This document shows, one piece after another, positions 7,391-20,418 of a DNA stretch of 23,199 nucleotides. Within the stretch, counting starts at the first letter, position 1, and every line of letters begins with the position of its first letter. Under the pieces are notes generated by a model. It was given only the letters and a program-made list of their open reading frames with translations. It was not told where the DNA came from and did not search any database. Both the position numbers and the translations under genes were made by a program. Source of the stretch: a virus; IMG/VR virus record IMGVR_UViG_3300005841_000083, positions 1 through 23,199 of that record; one strand, 5' to 3'.

Positions 7391-7729
7391 TTACGACCCC
7401 AGAACGGACTTCGTCGCGGTAGCCGGGGCTGGTGCGGCACCGCCGGCGAAGATGTTCGCGAACACCCCCCGACGACGACGCAGAAGATCCTGCTGTTGTA
7501 GGGCTGCGTTGGCCGCGGTGTCCTGCGTGGGAGCGGTCGGCGGAGCAATCGGGCCCTCGCCATAATAGTTGCGGTTGTTGCCGGGTCTACCTAGCACAGC
7601 ATTCTGAGTGCCAACATCCGCTTTGGAGATAATCTTGGCCAGAGGGTCGATCTTACCGATCGGTCCTCCAATGATGCCTCGATCCCATCGGCGCCCCGCG
7701 TTTGAGATGCTATTGACGATCCCGCTCAT
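7391..7729 (-). CDS. Small putative virion protein of unknown function
   Basis: A 112-residue protein, ATG at 7729 with no clear Shine-Dalgarno sequence. It sits between the gp14-like and gp15-like genes, and its TAA stop directly abuts the GTG of the gp15-like gene. The N-terminus (MSGIVNSISNAGRRWDRG) is basic. The middle is Pro/Gln/Ala-rich, followed by an RRRR cluster and an Ala/Pro-rich tail, so much of it is probably disordered. I do not recognise a family. Location inside the ejection-protein block suggests a minor virion or assembly component. A copy of the recurrent intergenic element lies just upstream, so it may be the first gene of a transcript segment carrying the gp15- and gp16-like genes. 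Confidence 0.7.
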   Translation of the reverse strand: MSGIVNSISNAGRRWDRGIIGGPIGKIDPLAKIISKADVGTQNAVLGRPGNNRNYYGEGPIAPPTAPTQDTAANAALQQQDLLRRRRGVFANIFAGGAAPAPATATKSVLGS

Positions 7730-7747
7730 GGTTTCAGCGTTGGTCAG

Positions 7748-7768
7748 TCAGGGTGCAGAAAGCAACTA
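7748..7768 (-). promoter_or_regulatory. Recurrent intergenic element, copy C
   Basis: The coding strand reads GTTGCTTTCTGCACCCTGA directly after the TAG stop of the gp14-like gene, in a 36-base gap. It matches the copy at 11169-11187 at 18 of 19 positions and shares a TAGTTG-xxTTCTGC core with the copies at 14006-14024 and 20400-20418. Its function is unknown: a phage-polymerase promoter, an RNA-processing site or a protein-binding site are all possible. No sigma-70 -10 box is conserved at a fixed distance. Confidence 0.5.
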
Positions 7769-8188
7769 CCCGAGGTAATTTCCTGCCTTGCCGCGTAGCA
7801 GTGCGCCCCCAGCTCGCAGGTAGTCCGAGGTCGCTTCGGACTGCCCTTCAGAGGCGATGTTGGCCGCCTGCAGGCCATAGCTCCATTTCTGCAATTGGGC
7901 CTTGTAGCGAATCGAGAGCGCATCCTCTGTCATGTTGCGGACGTTCTGCGTAATGGCCCGTCCGGTGGACCCGCCGAAACCCGCGCCAGCCTGGGCTGCG
8001 GCGGCAATCTGGGAACCCTGAATCATGGAGTTCTTTCGCCGTTGCTGGGCTTCGGCTTCGTATCCTTGAGCCGATGCCGTTTTCGCCTCATATCCCATGA
8101 TGGCGGCGTTGGAATCAGCGGCGTTCTGTTTGGCGGTTCCGGAGATGACGGAACCGGCCATCATGACGAGAGGGATGGCGGCGGCCAT
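7766..8188 (-). CDS. Internal virion protein, T7 gp14-like
   Basis: A 140-residue protein beginning with a short hydrophobic segment (MAAAIPLVMMAGSVISG) followed by a long Ala/Gln-rich helix with YEAKTASAQGYEAEAQQ and a Gly-Ala-rich turn (AGAGFGGSTGRAI). This is the usual make-up of the gp14-like ejection protein, thought to form the pore in the outer membrane. The start at 8188 is chosen because a GAGG lies six bases upstream. An in-frame ATG at 8164 would give a neat ATGA junction but has no ribosome binding site. The gene overlaps the preceding one by 28 bases. It lies between gp13-like and gp15-like genes, as in T7-type phages. Confidence 0.72.
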   Translation of the reverse strand: MAAAIPLVMMAGSVISGTAKQNAADSNAAIMGYEAKTASAQGYEAEAQQRRKNSMIQGSQIAAAAQAGAGFGGSTGRAITQNVRNMTEDALSIRYKAQLQKWSYGLQAANIASEGQSEATSDYLRAGGALLRGKAGNYLG

Positions 8189-8607
8189 GAAATCCTCGCA
8201 AAGCGGTAGTGGTCTTCACCGTTGAGGCCGTACGCCCTCATCCGGCCTTCATTCTCAAATCCCAGTAGCTCGAGCCAGCGGCAACCTTGGTTGAACGACA
8301 CCTCGGTGGTGGCGTCGATGCGTTTCAAGTTCGTTAGATCGAGCAGACGCCTAACACAGCGATCGAGTTTCACGAAGTGTGGCCCGGCATCCTTCGACAC
8401 GAACGCCCACAGCACGCCCATCCCAAATCCCTGGAAAGCGACCCCCGCGCAGGCGAGGATCTTTCCATCGTGTTCTGCCGAAGCGGCCGGCCCGACGGCC
8501 TGAAGACACTTCAGATATTCCACGCAGATGTGGGAAACCACGTAGCTCTGAGCCGGCTGGAGCTCCAGCCGTTCAATATGCTCGGGCTCAAAGGGGATCA
8601 CATTCAT
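8161..8607 (-). CDS. GNAT-fold protein, T7 gp13-like internal virion protein
   Basis: A 148-residue protein, ATG at 8607 sharing ATGA with the stop of the nozzle gene. The pattern resembles an N-acetyltransferase fold: N-terminal strand-helix, central AEHDGKILACAGVAFQGFGMG, and a C-terminal FNQGCRWLELLGFENEGRM, the segment where GNAT proteins typically have a LGFxxEG motif. T7 gp13 and its relatives are described as acetyltransferase-like but structural or assembly proteins. The classical R/Q-x-x-G-x-G/A acetyl-CoA loop is not obvious, so catalysis is doubtful. Position directly after tail tubular protein B and before the gp14-like gene supports a role in assembling the internal core. An authentic acetyltransferase modifying a virion or host protein remains possible. 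Confidence 0.68.
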   Translation of the reverse strand: MNVIPFEPEHIERLELQPAQSYVVSHICVEYLKCLQAVGPAASAEHDGKILACAGVAFQGFGMGVLWAFVSKDAGPHFVKLDRCVRRLLDLTNLKRIDATTEVSFNQGCRWLELLGFENEGRMRAYGLNGEDHYRFARISWPPPSLSS

Positions 8608-11150
8608 GGAGGCGAGGGCTCGTTGACCGTGAGCGTCGGGAAGATGGCGAGAATCTCGGTTGCAAACGGACCCGGCTGATAGACGCGGACCTTGCAGGAT
8701 GTCCCGTAATCCCCCGGCAGAGAGATGCGCTGGCTGTCACCGGTGAGTAACGGTGGGGGACTCGCCAACGTGGTGGTGTTGAGGTTCGACTGGATCGGGT
8801 CTAGCCGGCTGCCGGCCAGGCCGATATACGCCCCCATGGTATTCTTGAATCGCACCACAGCATGTGACGCGCGTTTGGTCTTGCCCTGAGCGGTACCGAA
8901 ATCCGCTCCACCTTCCAGATCCATGCTCACGAGGTCGGAAGGACACTTGAGGCCCACCTGAATCACACTGCCGGCGACATCGAGCGTAATGTGTCCAGTG
9001 TTGTCGACCACTCGATCCGGATGCCCGCCACCGTCTCGCAGGATGGTCACCGTCTCGCCGATCAGCCAGGGAATTGATACGGTCTTAGTCGGCGTGCCGT
9101 TATAGATACCGGACATGTCGACGTAGCACATCGTGTTCTGTGCGTCGCCGGTCTCGAAGTCTTTTTCCAGATACTCCACTGAACGCACGACCTGTCCGTT
9201 GATGGTGCGATTGACGATCAGCCAGACCTCATCCCGCGTACCATCTGGGGCAGGTATCACCGAGACGCACTCGACGATCGCCGCTCCGGCATTCGTGGCG
9301 CCCATCGTGTGTTCGTGCCAGCCCGTCACGTTATCGGGTCGATCGAATACATACCCGATCAAGACACCATCGTTACGGACGGCCCAGAGGGTCTCGTAGG
9401 GCTCCTGGTGCCAGGACATATCAACGATCCCAGAAGTCACGGTATAGCCGGCAATGTGGTTCGCTAGACGCGTCTGGTTGGTTGAGTCGAAGATGTCGAG
9501 GTAGAAGTTATAGTCCTGGGCGAGAACCTTTTTTCCACCTGCCTGGATGTAGAAGTTCGACGTTCCGATGATCTCGCCGCGTATCGCACGCGAGCGCCAT
9601 TTCGAATGGCGTAAAACGTCCACATTGCTCGGGCCAAGCGCCTGAGTCGTGACGATAGGCCCTAGGGCGAATTCGCCACCCTTGGTGCCGATGAGTAGGA
9701 ACCGTGTGGTCTGGGAGAGCCAGGTGATTGCATCAACATCCTGGGCCGCGATATTGCCGGACACCCCGCAGGCGTCCGTCACGAGCGAGAAGAGGTCTTC
9801 CGTGTGACTGGCGTACTGTCCCGGCGCGGAGCCCCACCACTTGATGCCACCCGCCCAGAAGAGGCGATCGGCGAAGAAGCTGACGCAGGTCGGGAAGGAT
9901 CCGGTATACCCCGTTCTACCCTGCCCCCAGGCTCCCAACTGCCAGTTGAGCGAGGCGTTCTTGATCGCCGAGCCGCCGGTAGTGAAAGCGGAATACCCGG
10001 TAGAGTCCACCGTCCCCAACGTGAAGGTTCCCGCGCCAGTTGCGGTGACCACATAGGACTGCTCGGAAATCTGCGTCATTCCTCCCACGCCCGTCAGGTA
10101 GACCGGATCGCCCACCACCAACGTATGGCCGGCTGCGGTGACCACTGCGGGGTTGGCCTGCGTGATACCGGTGATCGTGAATGCTGTGCCCTGAGTGGCC
10201 TGCGGGAAGTAGTAGTACTGGTTGGCGTTAGTCTTGCCGGTCTGTCCCGCGTAGGACGACAGGGTAAGCGTCACCTGAGTAGAGCTCGTGTAGGCGGTGA
10301 CTTGCCCTATTCCGTACCCGGAATCCATGTAAAGCCACTGCACTGCCCCTTTGCCATCCCAGGCGATCCCATTGGTGTGAACCGGTGGATTGGGGCCCGA
10401 TGTCGCCGCATTCAGTGCCTGATACGTGTTGCCGTTGAATCGCGTCAGGTCCCCCTTGGCGTACGAGACGTTATTGGTCCACGTGGCCACGTTGAAGTAT
10501 TGAACATCGATCCGTACCAGCCTTCCAGGAGAATTGGCCGTCGCGACGTCCGTAGGGTCAAAGACTGCCGCAGTGGCGTGGCAGGTCACCTGATTGGGAG
10601 AACCGGCGATCGTCGTGACGTAGAGCGCTGGAGTGTTCGAGGTGTTGAGATCGAGGAAGGGACCATCCGGAGGCGCGTAAGGCGTCAGGGTCCAGTTGGT
10701 GGGTCCCAACCGGGTTAGCTGCATCGGCCAGTAACTGCCGCAGGCGATATAGATCACATCGCCGGACTGCTCGAGCTGCAAGCCGCAGGTGTTATCCGTA
10801 TTGGTGAGCATCTGGGCGGTGTACGGCGTCGCGATCTCGTACGGCACGCCACCCGAGAGCACCTGCCCATGGTTGGTATAAAACCTACAATAGTTAACCC
10901 CAAACTCGATCTGGTAGGCCTGCGACTGCGAGAAGATGAATTTCCGCAACCACGTGCGGTTGGCGGAATCCTTGACGCTCTGAACGAGTCGAGATCCCGG
11001 ACGGCGCCGTGCTCCACCCTGTACACGGGGGATGTAGTTCTGGAGCGTGGAGCAGCCGACCGCGTACTTTTCGTTGTCGACCCGACCGGCGAAGTCGGGA
11101 GAGAGTTCCCCTGCATTGAAGTTCGATAGCGCCAGCGCGTTCTTGCCCAT
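8604..11150 (-). CDS. Tail tubular protein B-like (tail nozzle)
   Basis: An 848-residue protein starting at ATG 11150. The opening ALSNFNAGELSPDFAGRVD, then LQNYIPRVQGGARRRPG, and the later RLFWAGGIKWWGSAPGQY are typical of the large beta-rich nozzle proteins of short-tailed phages, corresponding to T7 gp12. It closes the tail tube and binds the gatekeeper ring. Two segments look like extra modules. Residues about 222-270 (VSYAKGDLTRFNGNTYQAL then Trp) resemble a small chitin-binding-like fold. Residues about 325-397 (ITGITQANPAVVTAAGH, GVGGMTQ, VDSTGYSAFTTGG) resemble the E1-FCCH-like repeats common in phage proteins. No strong Shine-Dalgarno sequence precedes the start. A recurrent intergenic element lies just upstream. 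It follows the tail tubular A-like gene, as expected. Confidence 0.85.
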   Translation of the reverse strand: MGKNALALSNFNAGELSPDFAGRVDNEKYAVGCSTLQNYIPRVQGGARRRPGSRLVQSVKDSANRTWLRKFIFSQSQAYQIEFGVNYCRFYTNHGQVLSGGVPYEIATPYTAQMLTNTDNTCGLQLEQSGDVIYIACGSYWPMQLTRLGPTNWTLTPYAPPDGPFLDLNTSNTPALYVTTIAGSPNQVTCHATAAVFDPTDVATANSPGRLVRIDVQYFNVATWTNNVSYAKGDLTRFNGNTYQALNAATSGPNPPVHTNGIAWDGKGAVQWLYMDSGYGIGQVTAYTSSTQVTLTLSSYAGQTGKTNANQYYYFPQATQGTAFTITGITQANPAVVTAAGHTLVVGDPVYLTGVGGMTQISEQSYVVTATGAGTFTLGTVDSTGYSAFTTGGSAIKNASLNWQLGAWGQGRTGYTGSFPTCVSFFADRLFWAGGIKWWGSAPGQYASHTEDLFSLVTDACGVSGNIAAQDVDAITWLSQTTRFLLIGTKGGEFALGPIVTTQALGPSNVDVLRHSKWRSRAIRGEIIGTSNFYIQAGGKKVLAQDYNFYLDIFDSTNQTRLANHIAGYTVTSGIVDMSWHQEPYETLWAVRNDGVLIGYVFDRPDNVTGWHEHTMGATNAGAAIVECVSVIPAPDGTRDEVWLIVNRTINGQVVRSVEYLEKDFETGDAQNTMCYVDMSGIYNGTPTKTVSIPWLIGETVTILRDGGGHPDRVVDNTGHITLDVAGSVIQVGLKCPSDLVSMDLEGGADFGTAQGKTKRASHAVVRFKNTMGAYIGLAGSRLDPIQSNLNTTTLASPPPLLTGDSQRISLPGDYGTSCKVRVYQPGPFATEILAIFPTLTVNEPSPP

Positions 11151-11168
11151 CCGGCTACGGTCATAAAC

Positions 11169-11187
11169 TCAGGGTGCAGAAATCAAC
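11169..11187 (-). promoter_or_regulatory. Recurrent intergenic element, copy B
   Basis: The coding strand reads GTTGATTTCTGCACCCTGA, overlapping the TGA stop of the tail tubular A-like gene and filling much of the 32-base gap before the nozzle gene. It is nearly identical to copy C at 7748-7766 (18 of 19). Its placement at a gene end and ahead of a large structural gene is the same as in the other copies. Function unknown. Confidence 0.5.
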
Positions 11188-11833
11188 CGTAACGGATCCA
11201 GGCTGCACCGCCGGCGCCCACCGGGCGTGTGGCCACCCACGTGTCATCTGCCTGGACACTGGGCGGGGTCTCCAGCGCATTGGCCCGTACCGCATCCTGT
11301 AGCGCCTGCATGTAGGCCGCTTCCGTGTCCTTTTCCTTACCTGTGGACTGCGTGATCCGGAAGCAGGTCACCCGGGCGAGACGCGCGGCGAAGGCCGACG
11401 TAAAACACGCATCCCATGCAGTGGTATCGGTGATCTGCTGGATGTAATGCAGAGATATCGGAGGAGCCAAGTTTGTGAGGATCATGCCCCCTTCCACGAT
11501 GTAGTCATCGTTGGTGGGGCCTGAGCGGAAATCCGAGAGGTCCACACCCGGCCAGTCCATGTTCGAGTTGCCCACTTGCAGCACCCGTATACATCCGGCA
11601 GGGAGCTCAAACTGCGTGTTGTACTGGCCATTGACCGGAGGGATAGCGAGAGCCGGCAATTGAGCGCGCGTGATGGAGAACTTCCAGACGTGCTTGCGCA
11701 GCTCGGAATCCCGCTCGAGATTCCAGACTGCGTTCAAGGCCCGAGCGGAATTGGTCTGGTCGGTGATCGCGTTGATCGTATCCGCGCCGAGTAGCGTGAG
11801 CGCGGAATTGCAGATCTCAGTTTGGCTGGCCAT
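11183..11833 (-). CDS. Tail tubular protein A-like (head-tail adaptor / gatekeeper)
   Basis: A 216-residue protein, ATG at 11833, three bases after the preceding stop. The N-terminus SQTEICNSALTLLGADTIN, then ALNAVWNLERDSELRKHVWKF and LPAGCIRVLQV are characteristic of the T7 gp11-type tail tubular protein A family. In these phages a dodecameric ring of this protein joins the portal to the nozzle. Its length matches the family (about 200 residues). It lies directly upstream of the nozzle gene, its expected partner. Its stop codon is part of the recurrent element copy B. Confidence 0.88.
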   Translation of the reverse strand: MASQTEICNSALTLLGADTINAITDQTNSARALNAVWNLERDSELRKHVWKFSITRAQLPALAIPPVNGQYNTQFELPAGCIRVLQVGNSNMDWPGVDLSDFRSGPTNDDYIVEGGMILTNLAPPISLHYIQQITDTTAWDACFTSAFAARLARVTCFRITQSTGKEKDTEAAYMQALQDAVRANALETPPSVQADDTWVATRPVGAGGAAWIRYG

Positions 11834-11836
11834 GGG

Positions 11837-12175
11837 TCATGGCACGAAGCCGGAGCAGATCGTCTCTATGATCGCCTTGCTTGCCACACTGGCCGTGGCC
11901 GTCAGACCACCAGCCGTATTGAGCCAGCCAAGTGGCCACCACGAGTCCTGCGTGGTCGATCCGGTGAACACGATGTTTGCCGCAGCGCCGGTATGGTCAC
12001 GGAACCCCACCAACGTGACGGTGACAGCGGTGCCATTCTGCGCGATCTTGACGGCATTCAGGATCGTGTCATTGGCAGCACCAGAAGAGCCCGGGATGCC
12101 CTTGCTGAAGCTCACCGTGCCGGTAGTGCCGAGGATCGTCGGTACCCCAGGCTGATTGTTGGTATAGCCAGCCAT
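11837..12175 (-). CDS. Small putative virion protein, beta-rich, unknown
   Basis: A 112-residue protein, ATG at 12175 overlapping the previous stop by one base (TGATG). It is Thr/Gly/Ala/Val-rich with alternating hydrophobic residues (GTAVTVTLVGF, TGGLTATASVAS), suggesting a compact beta fold, and ends in a short helix-like AIIETICSGFVP. I do not recognise a family. It lies between the candidate cement protein and the tail adaptor, where podoviruses often carry minor head or neck proteins, so a minor virion protein is the reasonable guess. Expression is probably coupled to its neighbours. Confidence 0.7.
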   Translation of the reverse strand: MAGYTNNQPGVPTILGTTGTVSFSKGIPGSSGAANDTILNAVKIAQNGTAVTVTLVGFRDHTGAAANIVFTGSTTQDSWWPLGWLNTAGGLTATASVASKAIIETICSGFVP

Positions 12176-12399
12176 CAGTCGTTGACGTTCGTGTCTCGGA
12201 TCAGATACTGCTCGAGGATACGCATCGCCGCCTGAACCTCGCTCTTCTTCGGTCCACGCGTGCCGCCCTGGTCGGTCACCGAGGAGCCCGCCTGGTCAGC
12301 GATGCGCAGCTCAATCTGACCCGCTGAGGGTGCGTTGGTACCGGCGGTTACGCCTTCCAGCGTGCCGCCGGCCGCGATGGTGTAGGAGACAGCAGCCAT
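12175..12399 (-). CDS. Small hypothetical protein between capsid and tail genes
   Basis: A 74-residue protein starting at ATG 12399 with a GAGG six bases upstream. The first half has beta-strand character (VSYTIAAGGTLEGVTAG, GQIELRIADQ). The second half is a charged amphipathic helix (RGPKKSEVQAAMRILEQYLI). I do not recognise it. The spacing, seven bases after the upstream stop codon and a one-base overlap with the next gene, indicates it is translated as part of the same run of genes. The ribosome binding site sits inside a small palindrome (TCACCT/AGGTGA, 12403-12415). Confidence 0.68.
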   Translation of the reverse strand: MAAVSYTIAAGGTLEGVTAGTNAPSAGQIELRIADQAGSSVTDQGGTRGPKKSEVQAAMRILEQYLIRDTNVND

Positions 12400-12407
12400 C
12401 GTTCACC

Positions 12408-12926
12408 TCAGGTGATGTATGCGAGCTTCAGCGCCAAGTTGCCACCAGCACTGCCAGCAGTGACAGCAGTCACCACGACATCGTAGATGGCGTTTGGATC
12501 GGAGGTGAGTCCGAGTAACTCCCAGACGCGCTTGGTCACGTTCGCCACAGCAGCCGAGTTTCCCGCTACCGCTGGGAAATACAGGCTTGTCCAGACGCTG
12601 CGGGCGGAGGCCATTGTGGTGCCAGCCGGGATGAAGATCGCATCCGATCCGGAAACAATCGTGCTGCCTCCGTTGATGGCGAGAACGCCACACTTGTAGG
12701 AAGTGCCGGACGTGTTCGCCTCGTTCATCACCTCGATGTCGCCGATGCGCGCGTTTGAGGGGAGCCGGAAGAAGCGGTAGGTTGAGTTGTTCGAGTCCGA
12801 GGCCCCCATCGTGCACACATCCACGACCTCGCGGTAGATGCCGCCCGCGATGTGTGGGTTGTTCAGGACCGGCGGGGTTGCCTGATCGTTGGTGACCTGA
12901 GTCGAGAGAACGTTGACGACAGCCAT
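12408..12926 (-). CDS. Putative head decoration / cement protein
   Basis: A 172-residue protein, ATG at 12926 after an AAGGGG a few bases upstream and ten bases behind the major capsid gene. It is beta-rich: IAGGIYREVVDVCTMG, STYRFFRLPSNARIGDIEVMNEA, YKCGVLAINGG, AIFIPAGTTMASARSVW, then an alpha segment NVTKRVWELLGL and a final strand NLALKLAYIT. In BPP-1 the gene adjacent to the major capsid gene codes for a jelly-roll cement protein. The same location and the beta-rich pattern suggest this one may stabilise the capsid. I see no sequence motif that proves homology, so the role is inferred from context. Confidence 0.7.
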   Translation of the reverse strand: MAVVNVLSTQVTNDQATPPVLNNPHIAGGIYREVVDVCTMGASDSNNSTYRFFRLPSNARIGDIEVMNEANTSGTSYKCGVLAINGGSTIVSGSDAIFIPAGTTMASARSVWTSLYFPAVAGNSAAVANVTKRVWELLGLTSDPNAIYDVVVTAVTAGSAGGNLALKLAYIT

Positions 12927-12936
12927 GGATTACCCC

Positions 12937-13842
12937 TTACCGAGCCCAGATCTGGACGCAGCGCTTCTCTTCGATACGCGTTGCGCCTGCGGTCATGTAC
13001 ACGTAGGCCTGCCACGGCAAGCCCTGCAGGTCTTTTCGCTGAGCGACGTCAGTCGTGATGTCGTTCCAGATTCCCAGATGCATGCCTTCCTTTTGCCACA
13101 GGCCCACCTTAGTGGATGTGCCAGATGCGTCGTCCGTGCCGGTCGGTAGACGCTCCGAGTGGATGAACTCCACTCCAAGGAAACGCTCAATGCGCCCTTC
13201 CTTGAGGACCGCTGATCCGGGATTGAAATCGGAGCTGACGACCTGGACCTCAGCCAGAAGGTTGTCGAGCTGCTTGGAGCCGGCAACGCAATAAACATCT
13301 GTCGGCTGGTCGTTGTCAGGAATCGCCTCGTTGGCGCGCAGGATGCGCAGCGCTTCACGAAGCTTGGCGACCGTGAGACCGGTTGCGCTGGAAGAGCCCT
13401 GCGAAACGGACACGATCTGAGAAGATGGGAAAGTGACGCTCGTCGAGCCGGTCTCACCGGTCTTCGAGGTGCCGAACATCGCCGAGATGATCAGGTCGTC
13501 GAACTGGCGGTTCGCGGCGAAGTGTGCGTTCTGTACGAACTTGGACTTGGGATCGATCAGCAGGCGCAGCTTGTCGAAGCTGTCGAGCAACTGCGGAAGA
13601 TCGAAGTCGGAGGGGTAGACCCACCGGCGATCGGTTGGAGCATCCACGCGGCCCATCGGCTGATAGCGCGAGGTGACCTGTTGCATGGCGATTGCGCCAA
13701 CCTGCTCAACAGGGGAACCGGCCTTGCCCTCGTAGCGTTGCTCGGTGCAGCCCTTGCGCAACCGAGAGTCACGCTGCTGAACGAGCTCGTTCAGGATGCG
13801 TGCATATTCCTGAACGTAGAAAGTCGTAATATTGACGGACAC
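12937..13842 (-). CDS. Major capsid protein (Phage_capsid_2 type, HK97-like fold)
   Basis: A 301-residue protein. The start is GTG at 13842, preceded by a strong GGAGG about seven bases upstream. The N-terminus VNITTFYVQEYARILNELVQ, then SRYQPMGRVDAPTDRRWVYP, FVQNAHFAANRQFDDLIISA, DVYCVAGSKQLDNLL and WNDITTDVAQRKDLQGLPWQ are typical of the Phage_capsid_2 family, which includes BPP-1-like capsid proteins. It forms the icosahedral shell around DNA. The length is standard for the family, without an N-terminal delta domain, which agrees with a separate scaffold gene upstream. It has the longest leader of the window (174 bases), which contains a recurrent element and two potential hairpins, as expected for a protein made in very large amounts. 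Confidence 0.9.
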   Translation of the reverse strand: MSVNITTFYVQEYARILNELVQQRDSRLRKGCTEQRYEGKAGSPVEQVGAIAMQQVTSRYQPMGRVDAPTDRRWVYPSDFDLPQLLDSFDKLRLLIDPKSKFVQNAHFAANRQFDDLIISAMFGTSKTGETGSTSVTFPSSQIVSVSQGSSSATGLTVAKLREALRILRANEAIPDNDQPTDVYCVAGSKQLDNLLAEVQVVSSDFNPGSAVLKEGRIERFLGVEFIHSERLPTGTDDASGTSTKVGLWQKEGMHLGIWNDITTDVAQRKDLQGLPWQAYVYMTAGATRIEEKRCVQIWAR

Positions 13843-14016
13843 GAAATACCCTCCAAAAGTGGAATCACTTTCGAAGGGCGTGTCCTTGCGGGGCCGCTTC
13901 TAGCCGCCTTTCACCTCTGGGCTGCGAGGAGCGCTTTGCTAGTCAGCGGGGAGTGGGTCCCACCCGTATCCGCCTTCGTGGATGGGACCGTATGCAGAGT
14001 AGAGAGCAGAATGCAA
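13843..14016 (-). promoter_or_regulatory. Leader of the major capsid gene, with two hairpins
   Basis: This is the longest non-coding gap in the window. Besides the recurrent element at its upstream end, the coding-strand RNA could form two hairpins. One has GGTCCC/GGGACC arms at 13956-13961 and 13984-13989, with an inner ATCC/GGAT pair. The other, a 6-bp AAAGTG/CACTTT stem with a four-base loop (13856-13871), lies directly upstream of the GGAGG ribosome binding site of the GTG start. Neither is followed by a long T run, so they look like leader structures or processing sites rather than intrinsic terminators. Pairing was judged by eye, not computed. Confidence 0.5.
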
Positions 14017-14024
14017 CTAGCTAT
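14006..14024 (-). promoter_or_regulatory. Recurrent intergenic element, copy D
   Basis: The coding strand reads ATAGCTAGTTGCATTCTGC, containing the TAG stop of the scaffold gene, at the upstream end of the major capsid leader. It matches the copy at 20400-20418 at 16 of 19 positions (both carry TAGCTAGTTG) and shares TTCTGC with all copies. The location before the most highly expressed virion gene fits a promoter or processing site. A -35-like TTGCAT with TACGGT 18 bases later can be found, but the other copies lack a comparable -10. Confidence 0.5.
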
Positions 14025-14898
14025 AGGCGATCTTGCCCAACTGCTCGACCTTGGGGCCGTATTCTTTCTCCCACTGGAAGTTGGTGATCTTTCCAGACAT
14101 GCGATCTGACTGGATCTGACGCAGTTCCTTCAGCGCGGCTTCCTTGCTCACGCCCGAGAAGCCGCCACCACTACCATCAGAGCCCGCGAACCCTGACTCA
14201 GAGTTCATCGCGCCGATACCGGCAAAGAACTTCGTGAGGTTGGCTGCTCCGAGTACCGACTCGGCCCGCTCGAGTGCTGCCTTGTCGTCGAGGCCGAACT
14301 GCTTGGCGAACTCCCGGTAGCCGCGCTGGGCGAGCTCGCGCTTGCCGTCGTACTCACCGCCCCACTGTTGCTTGAGGTCAGCCATCTGCTTTTCCGACTC
14401 AGCGAGGTCGGCGGTCTGACCGGACTTCACTTGATCGGCCACCCACGTATTCCAGGCCTCGGCGATCTTGTTGGCCGCACGCGGTGGGACGCCTGCTTCG
14501 TGGAACCACTTGGCGGCAGTCTTCGCAAAGCCATCGTCAGTTCCCTGCGGCATCGGTAGCTTGTAGCCGTCCGCGGTATCCGGGACGCCCAACTTGGCCG
14601 ATAGGGCTTTCCACCCGTCAGCGTCGTTCTCGTCCTTCGGGAGCATCACGGTGCGCCCGGCCTTATCGGCGCCCATGAGTCGCTCGAGACTCCAGTGCGA
14701 CTTCAGCGCGCTTTCGGCGTCCGGGTACTTTTTCGTCGAAAGCCAGGTTTTGACCTCGGCATCTTTGACCGTATCCCACCAGCCTGTGCTTGGCGCTGTA
14801 GGTAGAGAAGGTGCTGCCGAAGCATTTCCGTTTCCAGCTTCCACAGGAGCTGAAGAATTCGGGGATCCACTAGTCAGTACTGCTGCTGCTGTTGTCAT
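14017..14898 (-). CDS. Capsid scaffolding / assembly protein
   Basis: A protein of 293 residues from ATG 14898, chosen because a GGAG lies five bases upstream; an in-frame TTG at 14913 would add five residues without a better site. The first ~35 residues are low complexity (Ser/Pro/Ala/Gly). Then come GWWDTVKDAEVKTWLSTKKY, ALKSHWSLERLMGADKAGR, GWKALSAKLGVPDTADGYKL and WFHEAGVPPRAANKIAEAW, all typical of the acidic, helical podovirus assembly proteins encoded before the capsid gene. The C-terminus is charged (NFQWEKEYGPKVEQLGKIAYS ending), as expected for a capsid-binding helix-turn. It acts inside the procapsid and leaves before or during packaging. It overlaps the Bbp19-like gene by 29 bases. 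An odd run of restriction palindromes lies near the start of the coding sequence. Confidence 0.87.
   Translation of the reverse strand: MTTAAAVLTSGSPNSSAPVEAGNGNASAAPSLPTAPSTGWWDTVKDAEVKTWLSTKKYPDAESALKSHWSLERLMGADKAGRTVMLPKDENDADGWKALSAKLGVPDTADGYKLPMPQGTDDGFAKTAAKWFHEAGVPPRAANKIAEAWNTWVADQVKSGQTADLAESEKQMADLKQQWGGEYDGKRELAQRGYREFAKQFGLDDKAALERAESVLGAANLTKFFAGIGAMNSESGFAGSDGSGGGFSGVSKEAALKELRQIQSDRMSGKITNFQWEKEYGPKVEQLGKIAYS
14855..14881. other. Polylinker-like cluster of four 6-bp palindromes
   Basis: On the plus strand GAATTCGGGGATCCACTAGT is followed one base later by AGTACT: EcoRI, BamHI, SpeI and ScaI sites within 27 bases. It lies in codons near residues 6-15 of the scaffold protein and overlaps the last bases of the Bbp19-like gene. 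The frame is intact and the encoded residues (VLTSGSPNSS) fit the low-complexity N-terminus, so chance or natural sequence is quite possible. GGGGATCCACTAGT also occurs in common cloning polylinkers. Confidence 0.6.
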
Positions 14899-15157
14899 TG
14901 CCACTCCACTCAAGCATGAGATGAATACGATCCGCTACGGCCTTCTTGCCGTCCCGGTAGATTGTTGTGTAGGGATCCATCCGCCCTTCTTTGTCCATGT
15001 GAATGGTTTCGTGTCCACGCTTGCAAAATCCATCGAGGTCTTGCAGGACGCGCTGACCAACGGGGTTGTTGAAGACGGTGGCGTACGCATCATGTAGTCG
15101 CCGACGGCTCTCGATATAGTCCAGCCGGGCTGCCTCGTTCTCTTCTTGTGATGTCAC
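14870..15157 (-). CDS. Bbp19-like phage protein
   Basis: A 95-residue protein. The start is GTG at 15157, sharing GTGA with the previous stop and preceded by GGGAG about six bases upstream. The central segment YATVFNNPVGQRVLQDLDGFC, followed by HMDKEGRMDPYTTIYRDGKK and AVADRIHLMLEW, follows the pattern of the small Bbp19-like family (Y-x-x-x-F-x-x-P-x-G-x-x-V-L-x-D-L, then a G-x-x-x-V helix), named after a BPP-1 protein encoded next to the scaffold and capsid genes. The same position holds here. Function in the family is not established; a minor virion or assembly role is likely. The Ser/Asp-rich tail overlaps the scaffold gene start. Confidence 0.8.
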   Translation of the reverse strand: MTSQEENEAARLDYIESRRRLHDAYATVFNNPVGQRVLQDLDGFCKRGHETIHMDKEGRMDPYTTIYRDGKKAVADRIHLMLEWSGNDNSSSSTD

Positions 15158-16617
15158 AGCAGCTCCCGAAGTAGGGCTTTGACCACGGACGAATAGTTAC
15201 GACTGGATTTCTTTGGAGGATCCACTGGGATGGGTGTCTTCTCAGACACTCCAGGTGAGGCGCGCGTCGCTATCGCGTATTCCTCTCCGAATACCTGATC
15301 ATCACGCATAACAGGTCCTATCTTCTTCTTGCGCTTCCTGACGACGCCAGGAGCTGATCCGTCTATTGCCGGTGGCGGGGGTGTTGGAGTCGATCCTCCG
15401 GTAGCGCTACTACTATCGGATAGGCCGAGCTCATCCAACGCGGTAGCCGAGAGGATAATAGTTGCCGAGGCTGTATCGCCAAGACCGAGCGCGTCCGACG
15501 CACTGGCGCCAGACTGCGTTGCGGTAACGCTATCAGCAAGGGCGAGCGAATCCGACCCGCTCGTCTTCGCCTGCAAGATCGCGGAGCCGGCATCCGTCAG
15601 TGCCAACGAGTCAGCGCCCGTGGCTTTCGCCAACAGAATGCTCGTTGTGCTATCGCTCAATGCGAGCGAGTCACTTCCCGATGCCGGCAGAGTGGACGTG
15701 CGGGTTGCGCTGTCACTTAGCCCCAGCGAATCAGATGCCGAGTTCGCAAAGATACTGCCACCAGCGCCTGTATCGGACAGCGCCAGAGAGTCTGATCCGC
15801 TTGCCAGGAGCGTCGCTTTATTCGACGCTGAATCAGCCAGCCCCAGGGAATCTGATCCGGTGGCCTTCGCCGCCAGCGTATTGGTCGCTGAGTCTGCGAG
15901 CCCCAGGGAATCACTACCCGATACGTTGAAAGTACTGCCGCCTGCAGCCAAGATCTCATACACCACATACGCCCACTGGGGCGTACCGGGTGAATGGAAG
16001 TTCAGTGTCTGGGCTCCGGCCGCTCCCGAGTTGCTGGATTTGTAGGCCCTGCCACCGCTCGTCTGTCCGGTCTGCGTATAGCCGTTTATCGTATCAGTAC
16101 TGGTCGGCGTGCCGGCTGCAGCCCAGTCGCACGCGACACCCGCTACTCGAGAGCCCGTGGCTGTCGTTGTCAGTGATGCGCTGAGATTCGCAGTGGTGCT
16201 GGTACCGCTATTGGTTGCCGCGCCGGCTTGGCTTGTTGCAGCACCAGTCCAGACATCAACCCACCCTGCGGCATCGTTTGGGATAGATCCTGCAGTGGAC
16301 CCTGTGTTGGTGACACTGATCGTTACGGTAGTCGCGACACTGGAATTGACGAAGGCGCGCCAGACGGCGGATGACCCGCCGCTAGCATTGGCTTTACTAA
16401 GGACGATAGCCCAGGTCCCTAGACCACCGCCTGTGTTGGTGGGATTCCCGAAGGTGGGAGTCGCCCCGGCTGTGCTGTTGACGCACGCACTGCAATAGAC
16501 CCACGCGCCAGCCGGCGGGGTAAACGAGGCCGATGTCCCTGATTCTGTCCCACCTGCAGCGGTTGTACTACTGAGATTGAACCGGGCTGGACTAGACGCA
16601 TCGGGGGCAATCGCCAT
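15154..16617 (-). CDS. Repeat-containing putative virion surface protein
   Basis: A 487-residue protein, ATG at 16617 overlapping the previous TAA (TAATG). Residues 1 to about 228 form a Thr/Ser/Gly/Ala-rich beta domain (TSASFTPPAGAWVYCSACVN, GWVDVWTG, GTPQWAYVVYEIL), like the jelly-roll-type domains seen in phage structural proteins. Residues about 234-409 hold nine ~20-residue repeats built on GSDSLGLADSA. A Pro-rich linker follows (PTPPPPA), then a basic KRKKK cluster and a C-terminal tail of about 60 residues (GPVMRDDQVFGEEYAIATRA, ending SSVVKALLRELL). An elongated virion decoration or host-contact protein is my inference, with the C-terminal tail as a possible attachment point. I do not recognise the complete protein. 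Alternatively it is a non-structural accessory protein. Confidence 0.72.
   Translation of the reverse strand: MAIAPDASSPARFNLSSTTAAGGTESGTSASFTPPAGAWVYCSACVNSTAGATPTFGNPTNTGGGLGTWAIVLSKANASGGSSAVWRAFVNSSVATTVTISVTNTGSTAGSIPNDAAGWVDVWTGAATSQAGAATNSGTSTTANLSASLTTTATGSRVAGVACDWAAAGTPTSTDTINGYTQTGQTSGGRAYKSSNSGAAGAQTLNFHSPGTPQWAYVVYEILAAGGSTFNVSGSDSLGLADSATNTLAAKATGSDSLGLADSASNKATLLASGSDSLALSDTGAGGSIFANSASDSLGLSDSATRTSTLPASGSDSLALSDSTTSILLAKATGADSLALTDAGSAILQAKTSGSDSLALADSVTATQSGASASDALGLGDTASATIILSATALDELGLSDSSSATGGSTPTPPPPAIDGSAPGVVRKRKKKIGPVMRDDQVFGEEYAIATRASPGVSEKTPIPVDPPKKSSRNYSSVVKALLRELL
15391..15918 (-). repeat. Nine degenerate ~60-bp in-frame tandem repeats
   Basis: The repeats code for units of 19-21 residues, each opening (G/A)SDSL(G/A)L(A/S)DS and followed by a variable Thr/Ala/Ser stretch. 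The first two units are most alike at DNA level (shared CCCAGGGAATC on the plus strand). The last units are degenerate (SDALGLGDTAS, LDELGLSDSSS). The period is kept at about 60 bases. Asp at alternating fixed positions could bind calcium, but that is speculation. Confidence 0.85.
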
Positions 16618-16985
16618 TAGCTCACCGTGACAGAGGCTCCTGTCTTGATGTCAGCGCCCAGGGTGATCGTTCCCTTGAACTGCCGACCTGTCGTATCAGG
16701 TAGCTCTCCCGTGACATTCATCGTGGCGACTTCATGGCCTTTGACACTATGGATGCCTCCTGTGTCATCTCCTGCCGCCCATACCTGGAAGACGCCAGCC
16801 ACACTGACTTGGAATTCGTAGGAGATCGTGTCCTCGCTATCGGGCCAGATCGTTGTATCTGCAGAGGTACAACGGAGAATATCGATCTCCATCGAGGTCA
16901 ATCCGTCTGGGATGTCCGTCTCAGGTATGGTGTAGGTCCCGGCTGAATAGGTGTCGGTGGGTAGCACGGTATCGGTGGTGCTCAT
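16617..16985 (-). CDS. Beta-rich hypothetical protein in portal-scaffold block
   Basis: A 122-residue protein, ATG at 16985 sharing ATGA with the stop of the 33-residue gene. It is acidic and Thr-rich, with alternating strand patterns (DTISYEFQVSVAGVFQVWAAG, EVATMNVTGELPDTTGRQFK, GTITLGADIKTGASVTVS), suggesting an immunoglobulin-like or similar beta sandwich. I do not recognise the family. It is translationally linked to the repeat protein downstream (TAATG), so the two may act together on the virion. Confidence 0.72.
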   Translation of the reverse strand: MSTTDTVLPTDTYSAGTYTIPETDIPDGLTSMEIDILRCTSADTTIWPDSEDTISYEFQVSVAGVFQVWAAGDDTGGIHSVKGHEVATMNVTGELPDTTGRQFKGTITLGADIKTGASVTVS

Positions 16986-17083
16986 CGTTTGAACGCCTTG
17001 TGAAAGGCGCGCCTGAGCCGCAGCGCAAAGAGCCGTTGCTCAAGCTTGAGGATTTCCCTCTCTATTTCCTTCTCTACGTCCAT
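16982..17083 (-). CDS. 33-residue basic/amphipathic small gene
   Basis: ATG at 17083 follows AAGGAG with a short ACGAG spacer, one of the best ribosome binding sites in the window, and the TGA stop shares ATGA with the next gene. The product begins MDVEKEIEREILKLEQRLFA and ends LRLRRAFHKAFKR: an acidic first half and strongly basic second half forming a single amphipathic helix. It fills what would otherwise be a 107-base gap between two genes. It is too short for family recognition. Possible roles are a small assembly factor, a membrane- or nucleic-acid-binding peptide, or a leader for coupling translation of the next gene. Confidence 0.65.
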   Translation of the reverse strand: MDVEKEIEREILKLEQRLFALRLRRAFHKAFKR

Positions 17084-17092
17084 CTCGTCTCC

Positions 17093-17650
17093 TTATCCCG
17101 TCATGGTGTAGGTCACATTCAACGTGTCGCCACTCGCAACCGAGCGGGTCGCGCCGAAGCTCACAGCCGACAGAAGTGTGCCGCTTGTTCCGCCCTTGGT
17201 GGAGTTGGTCGCCATGAACACGCCGTTGATCGTGGCCGTGGCATTGATGCTGAACGCTGCCGGCGAGGCCGAATTGTCGATCGAGCCGGCTGAGGCTGTT
17301 CCCCAAGTCGGGGCAATTCGTGTCGAGTTCGAATAGGCGGTGGACTCCAGCCAGCCGGAATGGCTTGCCATCGTGTCGCCGGCTGCGATTGCACTGAAGC
17401 TCGCGTTGTCGATCAGGCCCAGGAAGTTGGCCGCCGTGTAGGCGGATCCCTTGAGCCAGTTGGTCAAGGCATCGTTCTTGCCTGTGGTGACAACCGTGTT
17501 GTCTCGGTCCTCGGTCCACTTCACCTGACCATCGGGACCGATGCACTCGATGTGAAAGCGTCCCTGAAGCCGTAGACGGTCCTGCGCAGTAGGCCGTGCA
17601 ATAAGTCCTGCGCTCGCGCTGTCCTGGACACTGACGGAGTCGTTGATCAT
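17093..17650 (-). CDS. Putative virion protein, beta-rich, with DSxSxxDSA N-terminus
   Basis: A 185-residue protein, ATG at 17650 sharing ATGA with the stop of the coiled-coil gene. After a short N-terminus (NDSVSVQDSASAG) comes GRFHIECIGPDGQVKWTED, DNTVVTTGKNDALTNWLKGS, NFLGLIDNASFSAIAAGDTM, SHSGWLE and further Ser/Thr/Ala-rich strands. I recognise this arrangement from uncharacterised phage proteins annotated only as structural or hypothetical. The N-terminal motif resembles one unit of the DSLxLxDSA repeats in the protein at 15154-16617, which suggests a shared binding feature or exchange between the two genes. Function unknown; a virion role is inferred from position. Confidence 0.75.
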   Translation of the reverse strand: MINDSVSVQDSASAGLIARPTAQDRLRLQGRFHIECIGPDGQVKWTEDRDNTVVTTGKNDALTNWLKGSAYTAANFLGLIDNASFSAIAAGDTMASHSGWLESTAYSNSTRIAPTWGTASAGSIDNSASPAAFSINATATINGVFMATNSTKGGTSGTLLSAVSFGATRSVASGDTLNVTYTMTG

Positions 17651-18069
17651 TTGCGCTCTCTCGATTCTGTGATGGTCACGGATGCCTGACCATCGGGTAG
17701 GTCCACAACGGCAGTACGCGTCTTCGGCGTGCGCATCGTGGTAACGAATTCATCGAAAGCTTTGGCCAACTTCTCGTTGGACTTGCGGAGCGCTTTCATC
17801 TCCGTTGCAACACTGCGCAGGATCTGAGAGACCTCACCATCGCGGGCGGCGTCGCGCTCAGTGGCTGCGGTTGCATGCTGGATGGCGGCAGTGAGTGGCT
17901 CTAGAGCGCCCTGGACTGCATGGAGAGTCGCCACCATGGCGACAGCATCTTGCATCGGGTCTTTTTCTTTCTTCGGCTCATCCATCTCGCTGAAGCGATC
18001 ATGGACGTCCATCCGCAACTCTTCGATGAGTCGGCGCAGCTCGGCGGTTTGATTGAGGTCACCGGCCAT
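17647..18069 (-). CDS. Coiled-coil protein of unknown function
   Basis: A 140-residue, charged, helical protein, ATG at 18069 overlapping the preceding TAA by one base. Residues 8-30 (ELRRLIEELRMDVHDRFSEM) and about 75-112 (ILRSVATEMKALRKSNEKLAKAF) have heptad-like patterns suggesting coiled coils. The last ~25 residues turn to beta/basic (KTRTAVVDLPDGQASVTI). No family recognised. It sits between the Cys-rich gene and the beta-rich gene of the accessory block; both junctions suggest coupled translation. A small oligomeric assembly factor is conceivable. Confidence 0.72.
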   Translation of the reverse strand: MAGDLNQTAELRRLIEELRMDVHDRFSEMDEPKKEKDPMQDAVAMVATLHAVQGALEPLTAAIQHATAATERDAARDGEVSQILRSVATEMKALRKSNEKLAKAFDEFVTTMRTPKTRTAVVDLPDGQASVTITESRERK

Positions 18070-18731
18070 TAGGCTCTCCGCTTGCGGCGCATGTATTCGG
18101 ACATCGACGACTCCTCTGGCTCTTCCGAATCATCTTTGTCGTCCATGTCATCATCGTCGTCGTCTTCGTCTTCGTCGTAATCGTCCTCGATCGTCGGCGT
18201 ACTGTTGATGGCGCAGCAGGTCGTGGGTGTGGTCGTGAAGTACATCGCTCCACACCACTCCCCCCGCCGTAGGCTGTCCTCCCACTTGCTGGTTTCCCTC
18301 CAACCACACCGCTGCTTCTGCTTGCTGCCGCAGCCAAATCCCTCACCGTTCTTGGCGGTACCGAACAGCGCAGCCTCTTTGGTCGTGCGCTTCATGCGAA
18401 CTTCCCAGTCCCCGGCTCGCTTGCCTTCGTAGTGACGGCAACTGCTCGCCTTAGGGTTGATGTCACCATCAGGACCAGGAACGATGTCCTCGATCACCTC
18501 GCAGTCGTTTTCTCCAGCGAGGTATTGATTGCAGTCCTGACAGACGTTGTTGCCCTTCGGGTCGTAGGTATGACCATCTCCACACCCGTGCTCGTCGGCC
18601 AACTGGAACTGATTCGCCGCCCGTTGGCGGTTGTGATCCATCACCGTTTCGAGGTCAGGCGAGTTCTTGTCCGGCTGGATGTACTTGCCGTCCCTCCCTC
18701 GCTTGAAGAACTTGATCTCGCGCTCGATCAT
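18069..18731 (-). CDS. Cys-rich protein with acidic tail, next to portal
   Basis: A 220-residue protein, ATG at 18731 sharing ATGA with the portal stop. It has ten cysteines (about residues 50, 64, 67, 77, 98, 134, 142, 160, 172, 173), including CQDC, and conserved-looking blocks SSCRHYEG, AKNGEGFGCGS and RRGEWCGAMYF. The spacing suggests a metal-binding or disulfide-bonded fold. Residues about 182-207 are nearly all Asp/Glu, followed by a basic RRKRRA end. I do not recognise the family with certainty. The acidic run might mimic DNA or bind a basic partner. Being coupled to the portal gene suggests a role in portal or head assembly, but this is inference. Confidence 0.75.
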   Translation of the reverse strand: MIEREIKFFKRGRDGKYIQPDKNSPDLETVMDHNRQRAANQFQLADEHGCGDGHTYDPKGNNVCQDCNQYLAGENDCEVIEDIVPGPDGDINPKASSCRHYEGKRAGDWEVRMKRTTKEAALFGTAKNGEGFGCGSKQKQRCGWRETSKWEDSLRRGEWCGAMYFTTTPTTCCAINSTPTIEDDYDEDEDDDDDDMDDKDDSEEPEESSMSEYMRRKRRA

Positions 18732-20374
18732 TGCGGCGGCTGCTCTTCAGGGTTCATCGCCTGATGCGCCTTAGCGAGGTTGAGCACGGCTTGCGAGGCG
18801 CCCGGGGCTGTCTGCGCAATGCTGTTGGCTTCAGCCTGCTGCTGCTTCTGCTGGCGTTTGGCGGCCAGCTTGTCGGGGTCGAGGATGAGGTTGACCGGGA
18901 ATCCAGAAGCCTCCAGGAATTCACGTCCCGTCTCGTCCTCGTCGACCAGGTCCAACATGCCAGGCATGATGCTGGCCATCGATCCCAGCCCTTGCACGGA
19001 TGTCATGATGGTCTGCGCCTCTTCGGCGCGCATGAGCTTCGCGAGTGGCGAGGTGTACTCGGTCTTGATCTTCTCGTGATTGGCCGATTCAGCAAGCTGC
19101 TTCGGCATCGGCGGCAACATCCCGGCTTTCTCCAGGATGTCGATCTCGCGGATGATCTGTGGGCCCAGGAACTCAGACTGCTGCCGGCCCATGGCGGGCG
19201 TAATGAGGATTCCCTTCTCCTGGGCGCGAATCAGGGCTTCCGTGGCCGTCATGCCCGGGTTCTGTGCCAGGATCTGCATCACGGAGGTCAGGAACGGATC
19301 GTGGATCGCCTGCGCCTCGAGCTCCATCATCTCCTTGCTGATCTCCCAATTGCTCTTGATCTCGAGCGGCTGGACCAGCGGGACTCCATCAGCGCTCAAC
19401 ATGCCGTAGTTGAGCGCACCGGCCCGGAGGTTGAACGGTGTGAGCGCTCCCTCGTCGGCGAGCAATAGCGGCGGGTCCACGGCCTTCTGTCCGGCCCGTA
19501 GCGCCGTCTTCTTCTGCTCGTTGAGGGTTCGTATGGCAGGCAGTGCAACGGCAGCCGGTGAGCGTCCGTAATGCTCACGAGGGGCCATGCGATACCGGCC
19601 CACCGCGTACGGGAATGTCCGATAGCCACCGTGGGCCAGTACCTTCTTCTCGTCAGGCCAGATGTACCACGAGGCATATGGCATGCCCTTCGGGCCCATC
19701 GCTCCTGCAACACGCTCCTCGTTGGGGCGCACGCAGTGGAGAATTTGGAACTCGTGAAAAGGGTTTTTCTCGTGAGCTTCCTTGATGGAATCAGGAATCT
19801 TCCAGCCCTGCGTCTTGGCCATCTGCATGCACTGATGGGCCGTGAACGGGAACTTGCGGTAGAGCTGGTCCACCATCCCGGCTGCATCCAGTGCCCATAC
19901 GATCTCGTTGAGAGGGATCGATCGGTAGATGAGATTCTGTCCCACCGCCTCGTCGATCAGCATCGCGGTGTTGCCGAAGGCCCCGAGCTGCAGGTAGCAC
20001 TCGTCGACCTGGCTGGTGTAATTGGCGCGGGGTCGATAGCGGGCGGTAAAGAGAGCTTTGCGGACCAGACTGCAGTACTGGGTAACCTCTTCGTCGTCCT
20101 TCAGTGCTTCATCGGCTGGTACGATGTCGTGCCACATCTGGGTGCGTGGCGTGAGCAGCGACTCCATGATAGCCGCGAATCGCTCGCAGTCCGTGATCGC
20201 TGTGGCATCGAATATCCGCGTGGTGCGGATGATGCCTTCCTCGAAGTAGCCGATAAAGTTGTCCCACGCGGGCAACACATACTGGGCGATCGTATTCCAC
20301 AGCATGCGGAAGTTGGCCTGGTTGCTGTGGAGTCGCTCCCAGTGCCCTATCAGCGTGCGGACGTCGTCACTCAT
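18728..20374 (-). CDS. Portal (head-to-tail connecting) protein
   Basis: From ATG 20374 the protein has 548 residues. This start is preferred because GAGGCT lies about eight bases upstream; an in-frame TTG at 20410 would add 12 residues but lies inside the recurrent element and has no ribosome binding site. The N-terminus (LIGHWERLHSNQANFRMLWN, IAQYVLPAW, then FDATAITDCERFAAIMESLL and LTPRTQMWHDI) and RPNEERVAGAMGPKGMPYAS are typical of the head-to-tail connecting portal family (PF12236) of podoviruses. The C-terminus is Gln/Ala-rich. It forms the dodecameric ring at one capsid vertex through which DNA enters and leaves. Placement after terminase is standard. It ends in an ATGA overlap with the Cys-rich gene. 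Confidence 0.92.
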   Translation of the reverse strand: MSDDVRTLIGHWERLHSNQANFRMLWNTIAQYVLPAWDNFIGYFEEGIIRTTRIFDATAITDCERFAAIMESLLTPRTQMWHDIVPADEALKDDEEVTQYCSLVRKALFTARYRPRANYTSQVDECYLQLGAFGNTAMLIDEAVGQNLIYRSIPLNEIVWALDAAGMVDQLYRKFPFTAHQCMQMAKTQGWKIPDSIKEAHEKNPFHEFQILHCVRPNEERVAGAMGPKGMPYASWYIWPDEKKVLAHGGYRTFPYAVGRYRMAPREHYGRSPAAVALPAIRTLNEQKKTALRAGQKAVDPPLLLADEGALTPFNLRAGALNYGMLSADGVPLVQPLEIKSNWEISKEMMELEAQAIHDPFLTSVMQILAQNPGMTATEALIRAQEKGILITPAMGRQQSEFLGPQIIREIDILEKAGMLPPMPKQLAESANHEKIKTEYTSPLAKLMRAEEAQTIMTSVQGLGSMASIMPGMLDLVDEDETGREFLEASGFPVNLILDPDKLAAKRQQKQQQAEANSIAQTAPGASQAVLNLAKAHQAMNPEEQPPQ

Positions 20375-20378
20375 CCCG

Positions 20379-20397
20379 GCAGCCTCGTGAAGGCTGC
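20379..20397 (-). promoter_or_regulatory. Hairpin covering the portal ribosome binding site
   Basis: The coding strand carries GCAGCC, a seven-base loop TTCACGA and GGCTGC, a GC-rich 6-bp inverted repeat. The portal Shine-Dalgarno GAGGCT (20381-20386) lies in the loop and right arm, so pairing could limit ribosome access. No T run follows, so an intrinsic terminator is unlikely. Pairing was judged by eye. Confidence 0.45.
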
Positions 20398-20399
20398 GC

Positions 20400-20418
20400 G
20401 CAGAAATCAACTAGCTAC
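20400..20418 (-). promoter_or_regulatory. Recurrent intergenic element, copy A
   Basis: The coding strand reads GTAGCTAGTTGATTTCTGC, starting in the TAG stop of the small upstream gene and filling part of the gap before the portal gene. It shares TAGCTAGTTG with copy D and TTGATTTCTGC with copy B. It is the upstream-most copy in the window. Function unknown. Confidence 0.5.

Follow-up and report, generated by a model that had tools for sequence, protein, structure and literature searches.

What is the function of a short sequence that recurs, nearly unchanged, in the intergenic gaps of a phage virion block? The question is raised by an incomplete podovirus genome, an IMG/VR record of 23,199 bases that was analysed at its full length and is called the window here; judged from its portal, capsid, tail tube and internal virion proteins, it is placed near the HTVC010P-type phages. 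A sequence-only reading of this DNA had reported four such elements, and all of them are present on the minus strand: copy A (GTAGCTAGTTGATTTCTGC, 20418-20400), copy B (ATAGCTAGTTGCATTCTGC, 14024-14006), copy C (GTTGATTTCTGCACCCTGA, 11187-11169) and copy D (TAGTTGCTTTCTGCACCCTGA, 7768-7748). The stop codon of the upstream gene abuts or overlaps the element in every copy, as had been described, while the match at 18 of 19 positions credited to copies B and C belongs to C and D. The 23.2-kb record contains the pattern TTG[A/C][A/T]TTCTGC four times, each time within a gap of the virion block, while 200 dinucleotide shuffles gave 0.04 on average, and the best common 15-mer of the four gaps reaches 54 of 60 identities, where 300 random sets of segments of equal length gave at most 50. 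The further claim of one copy in each gap longer than 30 bases depends on a 33-aa ORF (MDVEKEIEREILKLEQRLFALRLRRAFHKAFKR) at 17083-16982 (minus strand), which is missing from the ORF list, carries an AAGGAG ribosome site and fills a 107-nt gap (16986-17092); if this ORF is counted the rule holds, otherwise that gap lacks a copy.

The elements belong to what is, as far as sequence can tell, a real and conserved promoter-like system, made of three predicted leaderless promoters and one predicted promoter ahead of a structured leader. We consider it probable that all four are bipartite promoters read by a bacterial sigma70-type RNA polymerase, the element itself being the -35 region plus about five letters. 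From the sequence, geometry, statistics and conservation observed in the window and its relatives, we infer transcription initiation at these sites, leaderless transcripts and a regulator that would read the extra letters. Coordinates are collected in the table.

Table. Features of the virion block discussed in the text (positions in the window)
Feature	Position	Strand	Remarks
Portal gene	18728..20374	-	phrog_332, E 2.8e-122; G001 portal begins at the same ATG
Copy A, -35 box TTGATT	20405..20410	-	block runs on as TTGATTTCTGC to 20400; orthologs in G001 (at 5821) and L004
Copy A, -10-like box GAGGCT	20381..20386	-	ends 6 nt before portal ATG 20374; GAGGCT likewise placed in G001
Copy B, -35 box TTGCAT	14011..14016	-	orthologs in about 19 relatives
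Copy B, -10 box TACGGT	13987..13992	-	consensus of relatives TAG[CG]GT; predicted transcript start near 13980
Capsid leader, structured RNA core	13866..13975	-	P1, P2 and P5 modelled; P3 and P4 hairpins by eye; covariance-model match 90.2 bits
Hairpin P6	13848..13879	-	3' strand holds capsid ribosome site GGAGG (13854-13850); 5' strand shares CUUC with P5
Major capsid gene	12937..13842	-	GTG start with GGAGG; phrog_3437, E 1.2e-70
Copy C, -35 box TTGATT	11181..11186	-	contains TGA stop of the upstream tail gene
Copy C, -10-like box GACCGT	11157..11162	-	ends 6 nt before nozzle ATG 11150; GATCGT in G001, GACCGT in L012
Nozzle / tail tube B-like gene	8604..11150	-	predicted leaderless; phrog_376, E 4e-157
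Copy D, -35 box TTGCTT	7760..7765	-	
Copy D, -10-like box AACGCT	7736..7741	-	ends 6 nt before ATG 7729; GACGCT in G001
p112b, 112-aa gene at head of gp15/gp16 run	7391..7729	-	predicted leaderless

The geometry is strict. Counted back from the ATG, the TTG of copy A (portal), copy C (nozzle) and copy D (p112b) stands at exactly 36 nt, and the three share the layout TTGNNN-N18-NANNNT-N6-ATG with the -35 box at -36 to -31 and NANNNT at -12 to -7. In a search of both strands of the window, the pattern TTG-N21-NANNNT-N6-ATG is found only at these three places, and shuffled windows hold 0.35 on average. For portal the start was re-set to the ATG, since the TTG at 20410 given in the ORF list is the -35 TTG of copy A. 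Copy B reads TTGCAT-N18-TACGGT and is located about 170-174 nt before the capsid start. The distance between the TTG hexamer and the.A...T hexamer, of sigma70 type, is thus 18 bp in all four copies, and it is 17 or 18 bp in the orthologs of the capsid promoter. The sequence-only reading had seen no shared sigma-70 -10 box; this is right for the T of TANNNT, as only the box of copy B opens with TA, but NANNNT recurs at 18-nt spacing in all four. By sigma70 rules the absence of that T should make for weak -10 boxes at A, C and D, and graded strength, with TANNNT before capsid and [GA]ANNNT at the others, is plausible.

Given the 18-bp spacer and the positions of the two boxes, the predicted first transcribed base at A, C and D is the A of the start codon. 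In bacteria, leaderless genes have a published signature, TANNNT about 12 bp before the start (PMC3160421). When a -10 box ending 6-8 nt before the start is taken as the criterion, leaderless genes are predicted at A, C and D, at three genes each in the relatives G001 and G017, and at the tail gene of G013. No ribosome site precedes the starts of nozzle, p112b and all three G017 genes. The portal start is preceded by GAGG at -8 (8 nt before the ATG), a potential weak ribosome site, so that translation of portal with a leader is also possible. Under the promoter explanation, separate promoters would supply the portal block, the capsid, the nozzle block and the gp15/gp16 block, and the transcripts from A, C and D would begin on AUG as leaderless mRNAs to which 70S ribosomes may bind directly.

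A search of the relatives with the exact window sequence returned almost nothing, with one chance match, and their own versions were found by reading the orthologous gaps by eye. In the close relative G001 (33.9 kb; capsid 89% and portal 82% identical) the version reads TTGAWWWCCTGAC[GT]CTG; it is present exactly four times, in the same four gaps and at the same distances, including the 36-nt ruler. The sequence-only reading had named loss of conservation at the same gaps in related phages as a ground for refutation, and in this close relative the conservation held. G001 also carries a 985-aa gene without Pfam match (L069 8074-11031) between portal and scaffold, where the window has no counterpart of that size.

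Copy B is the most widely conserved. Orthologs of it stand ahead of the capsid gene in about 19 relatives, whose capsid identity falls as low as 63%; they have a spacer of 17 or 18 and the consensus TTG[CA][AT]T...TAG[CG]GT, of which TTG and the A and T of.A...T are invariant in the 19 relatives. This consensus comes from the 19 nearer relatives, as the automatic best-score scan chose doubtful sites in many distant ones; TTGACA-N17 was found upstream of capsid in several of the more distant relatives. The version in G017 (capsid 52% and portal 46% identical) is TTGATTCCGTCRCYC-N-GATATTCG, present in four copies. In three of them the ATG at +37 belongs to tailspike, to the gene preceding portal in the portal operon, and to a tail gene; the fourth is placed before the capsid leader. 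Across the G017 copies the mid-spacer letters vary but both half-sites are kept, a pattern that points away from recent duplication and towards selection at two contact sites. Among 205 homology-supported genes from ten genomes, TTG[AC][AT][AT] matched 13 times at -36 to -38 where 0.7 was expected, and 11 times over the other 48 offsets together (Poisson about 7e-13, or about 4e-9 with related pairs merged to 10 events). In distant relatives A, C and D do not recur at the same genes and B alone is general. The A, C and D sites of the window's clade represent about three independent lineages only (the window, G001 and, in part, L012). We also observed that p112b precedes the gp15/gp16 run in the window and G001 and precedes portal in G002 (rc 5759) and G017 (rc 30157). 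The element lies 36-37 nt before it in all four, so promoter and gene seem to move together.

The sequence-only reading had left open promoters, RNA-processing sites and binding sites of a phage regulator. The bipartite -35/-10 structure, the fixed distance to the start and the capsid orthologs in about 19 relatives favour promoters; a regulator is suggested by the extended, genome-specific part of the element, and processing gained no support. Against both RNA processing and rRNA pairing stands the constancy of the -35/-10 spacing between phages whose letters differ, and both were rejected on this ground.

Which polymerase, then, might read these promoters? The window is a fragment, so that the absence of a polymerase there is uninformative. 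In the relatives G001, G002, G006 and G017 no RNA_pol match was found, while the T7 control matched at 1e-109; the relatives gave no Sigma70_r2 match and no Sigma70_r4_2 match above the cut-off, a search that very divergent factors could escape. The single-subunit RNA polymerase or novel sigma factor that had been suggested was therefore looked for in relatives and not found, and the host RNA polymerase becomes the simplest reader. For published HTVC010P-type phages, which lack an RNA polymerase gene, transcription is said to rely on the host enzyme (PMC10504331).

The letters that follow the -35 box are common to the copies of one genome and different between genomes, which is more than sigma70 would require. 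The pattern TTGCATNTGCC-N10/11-TAGNNT, built on the extended consensus of the capsid promoter, is no general feature of hosts, with 2 matches in 200 Pseudomonadota genomes against 4 for the control. As the block is genome-specific and the pattern is no commoner than its control in Pseudomonadota, a phage regulator is the likeliest reason for these letters, and their distribution suggests one that co-evolves with the extended block. Such a late regulator, encoded by each phage, would read the letters beyond the -35 box. The only candidates in the relatives are a CI/Cro-like HTH gene in G001, near the contig end (L070 16515-16847), and a weak YdaS-like match, neither of them tied to the sites. 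Together with an integrase in G017 (L101-L102), the CI/Cro-like gene indicates that the group seems to include temperate phages. A beta-proteobacterial MAG (G015) holds three phage contigs with related portals (C147, C511 and C779), either by true association or by mis-binning; the pattern TTGCATGTGCC..TANNNT is absent from this MAG, and host and promoter could not be tied. One of these contigs, C147 (L105-L106), encodes at rc 9369-18278 a 2969-aa protein where the window has a 1200-aa gp16-like protein.

A more specific form of the host-promoter explanation places the binding site of a repressor or activator, for example CI- or CII-like, over the -35 region of host sigma70 promoters, keeping the virion genes off in a lysogen. 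We regard this sub-case as a serious possibility, somewhat short of an even chance. The HTH gene of G001 and the integrase of G017 point to temperate members, for which unregulated late promoters would be costly; on the other side, the shared block shows no operator symmetry, the HTH protein has no link to the sites, and the window and G001 proteins that were scanned included no integrase.

That the sites are promoters of a phage-encoded polymerase, or of a very divergent phage sigma factor, and not of the host sigma70 holoenzyme, seems to us unlikely. Letters uniform within a genome and different between phages are the usual sign of a co-evolving recogniser, and a block extending to about -26 exceeds the normal reach of sigma region 4. 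However, the relatives have neither an RNA_pol nor a sigma70 domain in searches whose controls worked, and two half-sites with TTG,.A...T and a spacing of 17 or 18 fit a sigma70-type RNA polymerase. Far less probable is an element acting on translation, an enhancer or a signal pairing with rRNA at a fixed distance from the AUG. The exact ruler in A, C and D and the tie to start codons, which recalls the start-associated sequences of mycobacteriophages, would agree with it, but copy B stands far from its start, the letters differ between phages while 16S rRNA hardly changes, and the half-sites show -35/-10 spacing. Recombination boundaries or recently spread repeats with no regulatory function, suggested by the positions at module borders and by long identities (18 nt) within G001, are the least credible, given half-sites that stay while the mid-spacer diverges, a fixed distance to the ATG, and a conservation of B orthologs that extends well past the identity of the repeat itself.

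On the promoter explanation, copy B would start a structured leader of about 140 nt able to hide the capsid ribosome site. From the predicted start to the capsid GTG the leader folds far better than shuffles (z -4.0). RNAalifold on 19 relatives gave 17 pairs, nine with compensatory changes; in helix P5, 98% of cells pair, compared with at most 50% when the helix is slid, and the covariation is 0.241 against 0.093 +/- 0.018 for shuffles. A covariance model was built from the 19 relatives and then run on sequences left out, where it matched just upstream of capsid in G017 (6e-12), L061 (2e-10), L043 (4e-7), L041 (7e-7) and L047 (3e-5) and, more weakly, in others. An internal-loop module, GG-ACAM-GG facing CC-C-CC, is present in two copies, in P1 and P5. 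Nothing in Rfam scored above the gathering threshold against the leader (best weak match E 0.24). The capsid leader is a structured, covarying RNA absent from Rfam. Since the CUUC strand of P5 also pairs with the capsid ribosome site in P6, the two helices are mutually exclusive, as in a translation switch, and the capsid or scaffold protein is a natural guess for the ligand.

In phages that lack a polymerase, late promoters are served by the host RNA polymerase together with a phage factor, as with the MotA box of T4 middle promoters, Q at lambda pR' and Ogr of P2. The promoters described here are alike in being bipartite and host-type with phage-specific letters near or replacing the -35 box; they differ in the leaderless geometry, in the presence of several promoters across the virion block, and in that the factor is only a putative one. 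With leaderless bacterial genes (PMC3160421) they share a TANNNT-like box at -12 to -7, the predicted lack of a leader and mostly no ribosome site, whereas the phage has three such predicted genes in one virion block with a common, extended, phage-specific -35 region, and three of its four boxes start with G or A, not T. The start-associated sequences of cluster K mycobacteriophages are 13-bp repeats (GGGATAGGAGCCC), typically 3-7 bp from the starts of non-structural genes, with a proposed role in translation (PMC3203893); these too are short, directional, intergenic and tied to start codons, but the block of the window differs in sequence, has a -10-like box as its partner and lies 36 nt from the start. 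HTVC010P-type pelagiphages, the proposed Ubiqueviridae (PMC10504331), have a related portal and capsid, a similar order of the virion block and no RNA polymerase gene. They differ in that the capsid is about 33-39% identical and window-type genomes have about 60% GC, and the passages of that paper considered here mention neither such late promoters nor the capsid leader RNA. The kind of promoter is known; what is new relative to the literature compared is the combination, together with the phage-specific dialects and the capsid leader RNA.

At its widest, and tentatively, the picture would be of a polymerase-less podovirus family with three leaderless promoters and one structured-leader promoter, whose dialect may be set in each phage by a putative regulator reading about -36 to -26, and in which a new bistable RNA switch, by covering or exposing the capsid ribosome site, may further adjust capsid output. 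For the biology of these phages, the finding offers late promoters of fixed geometry that form a concrete set open to testing; it also points to the likely use of leaderless mRNAs by structural genes and to a capsid leader RNA that is conserved and missing from family libraries, while the promoter dialects provide a handle for finding the missing late regulator.
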